A DNA stretch of 64,000 nucleotides, from the NCBI RefSeq assembly GCF_000331105.1, contig NC_020054.1:3718478-3782477 (forward strand), given 5' to 3'. Source of the stretch: Fibrella aestuarina BUZ 2. Its GTDB lineage: Bacteria; Bacteroidota; Bacteroidia; Cytophagales; Spirosomataceae. The stretch's first letter is position 1, and the number at the start of each line of letters is the position of its first letter. This document shows, one piece after another, positions 3,285-7,634 of this stretch. The position numbers and the translations under genes are program-made. The notes beneath the pieces are model-generated. The model made no database searches. It was not told where the DNA came from and worked only from the letters and a program-made list of their open reading frames with translations.

Positions 3285-5627
3285 ATGCAGACCAACTCAA
3301 GTGGCAGTTCGTCTGTGACGAACCTGCTCGATGTACTACCCGATGGAGCGATATGGTTATTGCCTGCTACTGCTGAGGCCGAACGCTTACCCGTTTTTGA
3401 TGTCGCTTTTGCCAATAAACAGGTTCGCCACTTTATTGCTGAAACCGTATCCGTTGACGCTGCAACGGAACCAACTGCCGGAAAGACTGAGCTGGTAGCT
3501 GATTGGCTGACCAATCACACCAAGCAAATTCAGCAAACGTACCTGTCGGGCGAGCCAATGAGTTATGCGCTGTTTGACAGCACAAAACAACAGTGGTTAT
3601 CGGTTCACTTGTCCCGCTATCAGGAAGGCCTATTAGTGCTCATCCGTAACGCAACAAACGTAAAAATAACCCCTGGCTCCCCCAACGTAACTGACGATTT
3701 AGCCGATATAACTGAGCGTAAATTACAGGAGGTTCTGGATTTTTCGCAAACGGGCTTTTTTGTCTTTACACCTGTATATAATGATGAAGGCGAACACGTC
3801 GATTTTCGGTTTGCTACCATCAACCGAATGGTGGCCAGCTTGATTGGTCAGACCCCGGATGTATTGACTGGGGCAATCGCCTCCGATTGGTTTATCAGTT
3901 ATCACGAAACGGGGCTGTTTCATTACTACAAGCACACCTTTGATACTGGAAAAACTCAACGGTTTGATATTCACTATAATGTGGATGGGCTTGATCGTTG
4001 GTTCGATGTACAATGTTCAAAGTATAAAGAATCTGTTTTAGTAACGTTTACAGACTTTACGCTACTCAAGCAGGCGCAGCAAGCGCTTGAACAACAGGTT
4101 ATTGAAAACCAACAGCAGGCCGCTTTGCTCAATAGTATACTTGATAGTTCGGACAGTGGGATAATTGCGTTTGCCTCCATTCGTGAGCCGTCGCGAAATA
4201 ACGAGATCGTCGATTTTACGTTTGTCGTTGCCAATAAAGCCTGCGTGGGCCTGCTGCACAAAACGATGGACGAAATGATTGGCAAGACGTTGCTGACAAT
4301 TTTTCCGGGGAATGTAGAAACGGGTTTGTTTGATCTGTATAAACACACCGCCGAAACCGGCGAACCGGGCCGGACGGAAGTCTATTATAATCATGATGGA
4401 CTCGACTTCTGGCTGGCGATTTCGACGCACCAACTGGGCGATGGTTTTGTGGTTACATTTACCGATATATCGGCACATAAACAGGCGAATCAGGCCGCCG
4501 AAAAATATGCCGAAGAACTCGTTACAGCCTTCGATACCTCGCAGACCGGTATGTTTCTTTTTCTGCCCGTCTATAATGAGCAGGGTGAGTTAACGGATTT
4601 TCGATTCAAGGTGGCCAATCGCCAACTTGGTAGCTACGTGGGGCAGGAGCCAGCCCGATTAGCGGGCGAGCTGGGCAGCAAATGGTTTCCCGATTACCTC
4701 ACAAACGGGCTTTTCGACAGTTATCGAAAAGCCTATATAACCGGACGTACCCAGCGGTTCAATTTCCACTACGACGGCTCGGGTATCGACGCCTGGCTCG
4801 ACATCATGGCCAGCAAACTGGGTGATCAGGTGCTGGTGACGTTTACCGATTTTACGCACCTGAAACAGCTACAGGAACAATTGGAAAATTCGGTAGCCGA
4901 CCTGCGCCGGACCAACGCCAATCTGGAGCAGTTTGCGTATGTAGCCAGCCACGATTTGCAGGAGCCTCTTCGGAAAATTCAGTCGTTCGGCAACGTGCTG
5001 AAAGAAACGTATAGCGAGTCGCTGGGACTACAGGGCGCCGATCTGATCGCCCGGATGCAGCAATCGTCCGAGCGGATGTCGACGCTGATTCATGATTTGC
5101 TAGCCTATTCACGGCTCACAACCAAGCGCGATGGTAAACAACCCGTTGACCTGCAAACGCTGCTGAATCAGGTGCTTGATGATCTGATTGTGCCGCTGAC
5201 CGAGTCGGGCGCCGAGGTAGAGGTGGGGCCGCTGCCGATCGTCAGTGGACACCAGATGCAACTGCAGCAACTGTTGCAGAACCTGCTGACCAACGCCATT
5301 AAGTTTCGCCGCGACGGTGTGAAACCCGTTGTCCGGATCTCAGTAAAAAAAGTGCCTGCCACCGCCTTACCTGACTCGGCCCGCCCCGTCCGGCTCGCCA
5401 ACATGTACGTCTGTCTGCGGGTGCAGGACAACGGAATCGGTTTCGAAGAGAAGTATGCTGAGCGTATTTTTCAGGTCTTTCAGCGCCTCCATGGCCGTAG
5501 CCAGTATGCTGGTACGGGCATTGGGCTGGCCATTGTGCAGAAAGTCGTTGAAAACCACGGGGGCACTGTAATTGCCAGTAGCCAGCCGGGTGAAGGGGCT
5601 ACGTTTTCGGTCTACCTGCCCGCCTGA
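3285..5627 (+). CDS. Cytoplasmic multi-PAS sensor histidine kinase
   Basis: A 780-residue kinase without membrane segments. It contains a weak N-terminal PAS-like segment and three clearly related PAS repeats (roughly residues 140-260, 275-385 and 405-520). The repeats share the pattern [13 protein letters not shown]...DFRF...WFDVQ...VTFTDF. A short coiled coil leads to a HisKA domain with phospho-acceptor His about 556 in [11 protein letters not shown]. The HATPase has its N-box Asn about 670 (LLTNAIKF) and G boxes DNGIGF and GTGIGLAI. Known members phosphorylate a partner response regulator; none is adjacent, so this is an orphan. I chose the ATG at 3285; the frame could also open at a TTG at 3240. 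It lies about 100 bases upstream of dnaX. Confidence 0.92.
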
Positions 5628-5723: not shown

Positions 5724-7634
5724 ATGGACAATTTTGTCGTCTCGGCCCGGAAATATCGTCCAGCTACCTTCGACACGGTAGTGGGGCAGGGCCATATTAC
5801 CACTACGCTCAAGAACGCCATCAGGACCAATCAGTTAGCGTCGGCGTTCCTTTTTTGTGGCCCGCGTGGCGTTGGCAAAACGACCTGCGCCCGGATTCTG
5901 GCCAAAACCATCAACTGCCAAAACCTGACCCCCGAGGTAGAAGCCTGCGACCAGTGCGAGTCGTGCGTGAGCTTCAACCAAAGTGCGTCGTTCAATATTC
6001 ACGAGCTGGATGCCGCGTCGAACAACTCGGTCGACGATATCCGTAACCTGATCGATCAGGTACGTTACCCGCCGCAATCGGGCAACTACAAGATTTACAT
6101 TATCGATGAGGTGCACATGCTCTCGGCGGCGGCGTTCAATGCGTTTCTGAAAACGCTGGAAGAGCCGCCCAGTTACGCTATTTTCATTCTGGCGACGACC
6201 GAGAAACACAAGATTCTGCCCACGATTCTGTCGCGGTGCCAGATCTTCGACTTCAACCGGATTCAGCCCGCCGACATTGCGGGGCATCTGGCCAGTATTG
6301 CTCAGAAAGAGGGCGTAACGGCCGATGGCGATTCGCTGGAGTTGATTGCCCAGAAAGCCGATGGCGGCCTGCGCGATGCCCTGTCGATGTTCGACCTGAA
6401 CGTGACGTTTTCGCCCGACCGGACGTTGCGTTACCGCGAGGTGCTCGATAACCTGCACATCCTCGATTACGATTATTACTTCCAGCTGACTGACCTGCTG
6501 CTGACGGCCAACCTGCCCCAGACCCTGCTGGTGCTCGATGAAATTTTGCGGAAAGGCTTCGATACGCATCAGTTTGTGGTGGGACTGAATCGCCATTTTC
6601 GCGATTTGCTGGTGTGCAAGGATGCCGCCACGGTGCAGTTGCTTCAGGTAACCGAACGCGTACAGCGGCAGTACCTCGATCAGGCGGCGCGGGCTCCGTT
6701 GTCGTTCCTGCTCTCGGGCCTGAGCATCGGCGGGCAGTGCGACATGAATTTCAAGCAGGCTAAAGACCAGCGGCTGCACGTCGAACTGGCCCTGATGAAG
6801 CTGGCCAGCCTTCGAGACCTGCTCAACTGGGAGGCGCTGCCCGAGCCAGCGCCGTCGCGGGCGGCGGGTTCAGGTACAATGCCAAATGGGGTAGCGCTGG
6901 AAACGAACGGCGCTGCCGAAAAAAAAAACGGTGGACTACCCCCTGACGACTCCCTGACGGCCACCGTCACCGACGTACCCAGCCCATCGCCCAGCGTACC
7001 GCCGCATACGAGCGAGCCGGAGGGAGGTTATCAGGCAACGCCGCCCGTGTTGCCCCCGCCAACTACCCCCTCGCTGACACCGCCCGGTGCCGCCCGCTCA
7101 AACGGGGTGGCCAAACCGGCCATTCCGCCGTTGCCGCCCCGTACCACCGCCCCGGCCGCCGGGGCACCGTTGCCCGTGAGCACCAAACTCCGCTCGACGG
7201 TCGGAATCGGCGCCAAGCCGCAGGCCGTAGAAACGGAATCGGTGGTTGTGACGGGCGAACGGCCCAGTCAGCCCTTTACCTTCGACGAGCTATTGGCGAC
7301 CTGGCGCGCGTTCTCGGCCCTGCGTAAGCAGCAGACCGACATGGCGAGTGAGCAGGTTATCCTGAACCGGGACCTTACGCTGACGGGGACAACCGTTAGG
7401 ATCAAACTGGACAATCACGTGCAGGCCGATCTGTTTACGAGTATGCTGCCCGATCTGCTGATTTATCTGCGGCAGAACCTGCAAAACTGGCAGTTGCAGG
7501 TCGAGCATGTGGTGGAGTTGGTCGAGACGAAAAAGATGATTTACACGCCGCAGGACAAATACAATTACCTGGCCGAGAAAAACCCCGCGCTGCATAAACT
7601 TCGGCAGGCACTGGGGCTGGAAGTAGATTATTAA
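5724..7634 (+). CDS. dnaX: DNA polymerase III subunits gamma and tau
   Basis: Clamp-loader ATPase of the replicative polymerase, 636 residues as tau. Visible are Walker A GPRGVGKTTCAR (about 45-56), a zinc knuckle ending CDQCESC (about 75-81), Walker B IDEVHM and the sensor/arginine-finger motif SRC (about 170-172). The lid and collar domains run to about 390. A Pro/Ser/Thr-rich linker (about 400-540) leads to a tau-type C-terminal domain. At the start of the linker the codons GAA AAA AAA AAC form an A10 run (6919-6928). Both alternative frames stop within about 12 codons, so a truncated gamma form is plausible (separate entry). I chose the ATG at 5724, where the conserved N-terminus MDNFVVSARKYRP begins; the frame is open further upstream. 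Confidence 0.97.
   Translation: MDNFVVSARKYRPATFDTVVGQGHITTTLKNAIRTNQLASAFLFCGPRGVGKTTCARILAKTINCQNLTPEVEACDQCESCVSFNQSASFNIHELDAASNNSVDDIRNLIDQVRYPPQSGNYKIYIIDEVHMLSAAAFNAFLKTLEEPPSYAIFILATTEKHKILPTILSRCQIFDFNRIQPADIAGHLASIAQKEGVTADGDSLELIAQKADGGLRDALSMFDLNVTFSPDRTLRYREVLDNLHILDYDYYFQLTDLLLTANLPQTLLVLDEILRKGFDTHQFVVGLNRHFRDLLVCKDAATVQLLQVTERVQRQYLDQAARAPLSFLLSGLSIGGQCDMNFKQAKDQRLHVELALMKLASLRDLLNWEALPEPAPSRAAGSGTMPNGVALETNGAAEKKNGGLPPDDSLTATVTDVPSPSPSVPPHTSEPEGGYQATPPVLPPPTTPSLTPPGAARSNGVAKPAIPPLPPRTTAPAAGAPLPVSTKLRSTVGIGAKPQAVETESVVVTGERPSQPFTFDELLATWRAFSALRKQQTDMASEQVILNRDLTLTGTTVRIKLDNHVQADLFTSMLPDLLIYLRQNLQNWQLQVEHVVELVETKKMIYTPQDKYNYLAEKNPALHKLRQALGLEVDY
6919..6928 (+). promoter_or_regulatory. 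A10 slippage or frameshift site inside dnaX (possible gamma subunit)
   Basis: Ten consecutive A residues lie within codons 399-402 of dnaX (Glu-Lys-Lys-Asn), at the border between the ATPase/collar part and the Pro-rich tau linker. Adding one A gives K-K-K-R-W-T-T-P then TGA; losing one A gives K-K-T-V-D-Y-P-L-T-T-P then TGA. The run also contains the frameshift heptamer A AAA AAC in phase. A 7-bp stem, ACGGTGG with CCACCGT, begins at the end of the run and may stimulate slippage. Known parallels are transcriptional slippage in Thermus dnaX and -1 frameshifting in Escherichia coli dnaX. Function here is inferred. Confidence 0.6.

Follow-up and report, generated by a model that had tools for sequence, protein, structure and literature searches.

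A conserved ten-adenine run in Fibrella dnaX as a probable slippage site, and an apparent switch of recoding mechanism within one family

Introduction

The dnaX gene of Fibrella aestuarina BUZ 2 carries ten consecutive adenines between its clamp-loader core and its tau part, which raises the question of whether the run serves to make a second, gamma-like product and, if so, at which step of gene expression. Three routes to gamma have been described: transcriptional slippage at A9 in Thermus thermophilus (PMC1088944 and PMC5009743, in their accessible text), −1 ribosomal frameshifting in Escherichia coli, the layout of which is outlined in the accessible text of PMC5009743, and proteolysis of tau in Caulobacter (same text). 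The role of gamma itself was long disputed, even in E. coli, according to the same source. Here we examine the gene in the 64,000-nt stretch of the F. aestuarina genome that we analysed (the window; contig NC_020054.1, positions 3,718,478 to 3,782,477) and compare it with dnaX genes across the phylum.

Results

The A10 run of the window

The product of the window gene matches the NCBIfam model NF011531 over residues 1–635 with 865 bits (cut-off 685), and the match to TIGR02397 is also above cut-off. Domain III, with which the clamp-loader core ends, is matched slightly below its cut-off (23.3 bits against 24.4; E 5.8e-05). The C-terminal part of tau, in which no Pfam domain was found, follows downstream of the run in the same frame as the core (Table 1). 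The original prediction had located the ten A's in Glu-Lys-Lys-Asn codons exactly where the core ends. The codons are precisely as claimed (GAA AAA AAA AAC, E399 K400 K401 N402) and the run does lie in the linker, but "exactly" is too strong, as the PF12169 match stops about 30 residues earlier.

Table 1. Features of dnaX in the window
Feature	Position	Strand	Remarks
dnaX (DNA polymerase III subunit gamma/tau)	5724..7634	+	636 aa, tau in a single open frame, ATG at 5724
Domain III, end of clamp-loader core	6459..6827	+	PF12169, residues 246–368
Candidate A10 slippage site	6919..6928	+	codons gAA AAA AAA AAc; kept in relatives
TGA closing the +1A (or ribosomal −1) product	6944..6946	+	gamma-like, 407 aa
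TGA closing the −1A (+1 frame) product	6955..6957	+	gamma-like, 410 aa
Conserved C-terminal segment of tau	7269..7631	+	from QPFTFDEL; tblastn matches in relatives

Both alternative frames end soon after the run, 15 nt downstream in the −1 frame and 26 nt downstream in the +1 frame. An mRNA with eleven A's would yield a protein ending in EKKKRWTTP, of the length originally predicted, while an mRNA with nine A's would yield one ending in EKKTVDYPLTTP, which computes to one residue less than the 411 first given. The gene therefore has the layout of a Thermus-type site, with at least nine A's between the core and the tau part, tau in one frame, and nearby stops in both others.

The same gamma could be made by ribosomal −1 frameshifting, or by sliding on poly-A, at a run that stays A10 in the mRNA. 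An in-frame slippery heptamer, A_AAA_AAC, sits within the run, and E. coli dnaX employs A_AAA_AAG (PMC5009743, accessible text); the heptamer is only weakly informative, however, because every A10 includes one. Inspection of the sequence immediately upstream of the run revealed no GGAGG of the kind that marks an E. coli-type site, and folding of three overlapping stretches gave no clearly well-placed hairpin after it. Specifically, a 6-bp hairpin begins about 26 nt past the run, and the fold z-scores are −0.41, −0.25 and −2.26.

A run of ten occurs only once in the whole 6,937,263-base genome, counting A10 and T10 on both strands, and that one occurrence is the dnaX site; the A8 pattern has 87 and 99 matches on the two strands. 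This uniqueness is particular to the F. aestuarina genome and is not shared by its relatives, 60 of 61 scanned family genomes containing A10 somewhere, with 0 to 56 matches per strand.

The run is conserved at the DNA level

Of 150 family genomes searched, 144 had a dnaX match, and these gave 145 loci (one genome gave two); the loci are not independent, owing to kinship, and the A-type loci with tau in frame span 22 genera. The frame of tau was located by tblastn with the C-terminal segment of the window gene. All five genomes sampled from the genus have A10 in dnaX, and nine to eleven A's are present in 110 of the 145 family loci (100 A10, eight A9 and two A11). Among the 142 family linkers with a detected tau part, run lengths are bimodal, with none of eight (six A's, 44 linkers; seven, 6; eight, 0; nine, 8; ten, 98; eleven, 2).

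Farther afield, a named set of 80 Bacteroidota loci, which overlaps the family set at least once (L014 and L165, on contigs of equal length), has A9–A13 in 68 (53 A10, ten A9, three A11, one A12 and one A13), and in 15 of these 68 the tau part was undetected. Of the 31 loci sampled from the same order or class, all of which were included, 30 have A9–A11, and A9 or A10 is found in 33 of 58 loci from other classes of the phylum, picked among 94 genomes with a match to cover families. Loci without a run thus number 35 in the family, 12 in the named set, one in the class and 25 in the other classes; in draft and metagenome assemblies, a difference of one A may sometimes be due to a sequencing error. 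The expectation that an A8–A11 run would recur at this place in relatives is strongly borne out by the family and class counts. The accompanying suggestion of an independent solution in this lineage does not hold, since the run occurs across the phylum and two-ORF dnaX genes with ten A's are already published (PMC3711429, accessible text).

What is kept is the DNA and not the peptide, as the run begins at all three codon positions among relatives and the base 3′ of it in family loci is C, G or T. The peptides encoded include EKKN, EKKK, AKKK, VKKK and KKKT among the matches listed. These data bear on the simplest alternative, that the run merely encodes a lysine-rich linker with no programmed event. 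Lysine is indeed frequent in linkers, and AAA is commoner than AAG both in the window gene (18 against 9 lysine codons) and outside the run in family loci (1212 against 649), yet a taste for lysine accounts neither for a length peak at ten with zero runs of eight in family linkers nor for peptides that vary, and it leaves the stop closure and the split genes described below unexplained. The lysine-linker reading is already contradicted, and we consider it very improbable.

Both alternative frames are closed early

Transcriptional slippage alters the number of A's both ways, so both other frames are expected to be closed. We counted a stop if it lay within 30 nt, ignored stops overlapping the last codon of the run, dropped linkers shorter than 60 nt (which reduced the named set from 42 to 41), and compared the counts with codon-shuffled controls (200 per locus). 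Among 95 family A-run loci that have tau in frame 0, 80 contain a −1 stop (null 0.44) and 72 contain a +1 stop (null 0.37). For the corresponding loci of the named set, the figures are 32 of 41 for the −1 frame (null 0.60) and 38 of 41 for the +1 frame (null 0.46), the −1 excess of this set being modest (0.78 against 0.60). Nearby out-of-frame stops are therefore conserved beyond the controls in both frames, as anticipated at the outset. Early closure of the +1 frame is not what a purely −1 ribosomal shift at the run would call for, and such a shift needs only seven bases, yet ten are kept.

In split genes tau lies out of frame

In some relatives an early stop in frame 0 follows the run and tau is found in another frame, so that these genes require slippage to make tau. 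Specifically, tau lies at −1 in all 13 split A-run loci of the family and in nine of ten of the named set, the tenth (L089) having it at +1. In the class and phylum samples, frame 0 meets a stop no more than 150 nt from the core end in 27 of 89 loci; every one of these carries A9–A11, and beyond the run a long open frame continues at −1 in 26 of them and at +1 in the other (L257). L044 was excluded from the named −1 count, its frame break being far downstream; it has A10, with tau at −1 after this second break, which reflects either an assembly error or a second shift. In L133, which comes from a draft genome (G068) that is 71% complete, the A10 run is directly abutted by an in-frame TAA (GCT TAA AAA AAA AAC), owing to an error or to a gamma-only gene.

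The frame of tau changes readily between close relatives. Within a single genus, tau is in frame in L105, which has A10, and at −1 in L128, which has A9; in genus g22, tau is in frame where the run is A9 (L211, L219) and at −1 where it is A10. A tree of the 145 DnaX cores requires at least eight changes of tau frame. Tau at +1 is rare, being seen in two genes, L089 and L257, both with A10; in genus g45, L257 contrasts with L255, which has A11 and tau in frame. A10 combined with tau at +1 is the least frequent arrangement and would best test slippage in which an A is lost.

The bias of split genes toward −1 speaks for ribosomal frameshifting at the run, which on the other hand does not provide for the two genes that need +1. 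Cleavage of tau by a protease as the source of any gamma, with the run incidental, has precedent only (Caulobacter; PMC5009743, accessible text) and leaves the run, its stops, and the genes whose tau needs a shift all unexplained; we regard it as the least credible reading, with next to no chance of being right.

Nearly all run-less family loci carry a ribosomal-type signal

Our search of the run-less family loci was confined to two heptamer patterns and to a region reaching from 30 nt upstream to 150 nt downstream of the core end; one of the patterns stood at the matching place in 34 of 35 (18 A_AAA_AAG and 16 G_GGA_AAG). In all 34, GGAGG starts exactly 15 nt before the heptamer. The sole locus of the 145 in which neither type of signal was found is L196 (genus g7). 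The Shine-Dalgarno (SD)-like duplex has an energy of about −10 kcal/mol in the ribosomal-type loci, whereas the median for A-type loci is −3.3, and the −1 frame ends one codon past the shift in 22 of the 25 ribosomal-type loci that have tau in frame 0, as it does in E. coli dnaX. Furthermore, these 25 loci all have an early −1 stop (null 0.62) and only ten have a +1 stop (null 0.50), closure of the −1 frame alone being the prediction of a −1 ribosomal shift. In genus g36, a TAG directly follows the heptamer and tau lies at −1 in seven loci; the eighth, L142, has an identical TAG, and its contig stops early.

Downstream structure is less uniform. Fold z-scores under −1.5 are obtained in 0.44 of 16 and 0.39 of 18 ribosomal-type loci, against 0.15 of 110 A-types; clear hairpins are present in L145–L147, L184, L227, L232 and L233 and absent in others. 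An Rfam scan of 15 loci (E up to 1) detected no frameshift element, returning one chance microRNA match. Taken together, these 34 family loci look like carriers of a putative SD-stimulated −1 frameshift site that would give the same product pair.

The comparison also informs the reading of the A-run loci, which as a group are mostly without a conserved SD-like stimulator. In 15% of the 110 A-type loci the SD-like duplex does reach −6 kcal/mol, and this share, like the equal share of low z-scores, weighs against a purely transcriptional slip; but no conserved hairpin was found after the run in these 110 loci as a group, folding being near chance (mean z −0.28), and close relatives with a −1 ribosomal-type signal look very different. 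Frameshifting by the ribosome as the main source of gamma at the run is accordingly unlikely, although it deserves far more weight than the linker or protease readings.

History of the apparent switch

The ribosomal-type loci fall into two supported groups, one of genera g12 and g30 and the other of g36, g2, g6, g9 and g28, and the DnaX core tree requires at least two changes between the A-run and ribosomal kinds; A10 is present in all six outgroup rows. In a 46-row tree that included 13 of the 34 ribosomal-type loci, a single clade of such loci is not rejected (p-AU 0.155), so the change from A10 may have taken place once or twice. A single switch would be attractive because the spacing of GGAGG and the flanking words are common to both groups.

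Within this one family, the recoding mechanism of dnaX thus appears to have changed. We think it likely that ancestral transcriptional slippage at A10 was exchanged, once or twice, for SD-stimulated −1 frameshifting at A_AAA_AAG or G_GGA_AAG with the bS21 tyrosine kept, that small frame changes repeatedly swapped the standard and shifted roles, and that selection acts on the two-product output and not on the mechanism.

The SD-type sites raise a second question, as the anti-SD is reportedly hidden in the ribosomes of Bacteroidia, and bS21 Tyr54 has been linked to this hiding (PMC9976891, accessible text). We considered whether it is relaxed in the ribosomal-type genera and found no support: in an alignment judged by eye, Tyr54 is present in 30 of 30 genomes, of both types. 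The 16S tail pattern was matched in 0 of 11 genomes, Fibrella included, a result that is uninformative as the rRNA may be masked. Frameshift sites with SD-like sequences are common in prfB of Bacteroidia (PMC8710568, accessible text).

Other run-less dnaX genes

Outside the family, two Bacteroidales metagenome-assembled genomes have a dnaX that lacks an A run and whose core is separated from tau by an in-frame TAG (P*IARSPQA; L053, around 4096–4110, and L057, around 2785–2800), past which tau resumes in the same frame. Stop-codon readthrough as a further route to gamma and tau, or a changed code, could account for this arrangement. Six other loci, from Bacteroidales and near relatives (L033, L039, L079, L092, L355 and L356), were seen by eye to have neither an A run nor the family's two kinds of −1 heptamer; here gamma may have been given up or be made otherwise. 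A slip on a G run in Bacteroidales (GGGGCGTAGC in L033, L039 and L092) was considered and dropped, as the relatives L355 and L356 keep a protein motif without the G4/TAG context.

Discussion

The conservation of the run at the DNA level, the closure of both alternative frames, the split genes and the lack of a conserved SD element point to transcriptional slippage, as in T. thermophilus. In the mechanism that we propose, RNA polymerase would slip while transcribing the A10 of dnaX; mRNAs with ten A's, or with ten plus or minus three, would be read through to give tau, and those with any other number would reach a stop a few codons further on, whichever of the two other frames is entered, and give gamma. 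In some related genera, an SD-stimulated −1 ribosomal site would replace the run and yield the same product pair. That the run serves the making of two products is very likely on the comparative evidence, and that it is a programmed slippage site acting mainly at transcription is probable. Programmed slippage making gamma, as originally predicted, is thus the best reading of the run and of the out-of-frame stops in relatives, while the mainly transcriptional nature of the slip, its rate and the use of gamma in the clamp loader are what we infer.

That a slip site has held its length throughout much of a phylum is strong evolutionary evidence of selection for both products. Natural pairs within the family, which contrast the run with the ribosomal-type site or an in-frame with an out-of-frame tau, also make it possible to measure how far one kind of recoding can stand in for the other. 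A practical consequence concerns annotation, as split dnaX genes could be mistaken for pseudogenes though tau can be made from them.

Among known systems, T. thermophilus dnaX is the closest in design, sharing the long A run, tau in the template frame and close stops in both other frames (PMC1088944, PMC5009743, accessible text). It differs in its run of nine and in belonging to another phylum, ten A's being the mode here; mRNA heterogeneity and product ratio are reported for Thermus in those texts.

The split relatives share the two-ORF layout described by Antonov et al. in 2013 (PMC3711429, accessible text). Their 17 genes of this form, drawn from 12 genera and with ten A's in nine cases, need a shift for tau and were inferred to use the same transcriptional slippage mechanism; some of the relatives studied here may already be in that species list. 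The dnaX of the window, in contrast, is a single ORF, and that screen picked frame transitions (same text). Within the literature that our search covered, we found no account of widespread A10 in single-ORF Bacteroidota dnaX and none of a dnaX mechanism switch within a family. The apparent within-family switch is the fresher part of these results, and the slip site of the window is itself of a known kind.

Unlike E. coli dnaX, the window gene has neither a GGAGG just upstream of its run nor a clearly well-placed hairpin. The run-less loci of its family, on the other hand, resemble the E. coli gene, having an upstream SD-like site, A_AAA_AAG (or G_GGA_AAG), an early −1 stop and, in some, a hairpin, in the same gene and with the same products.
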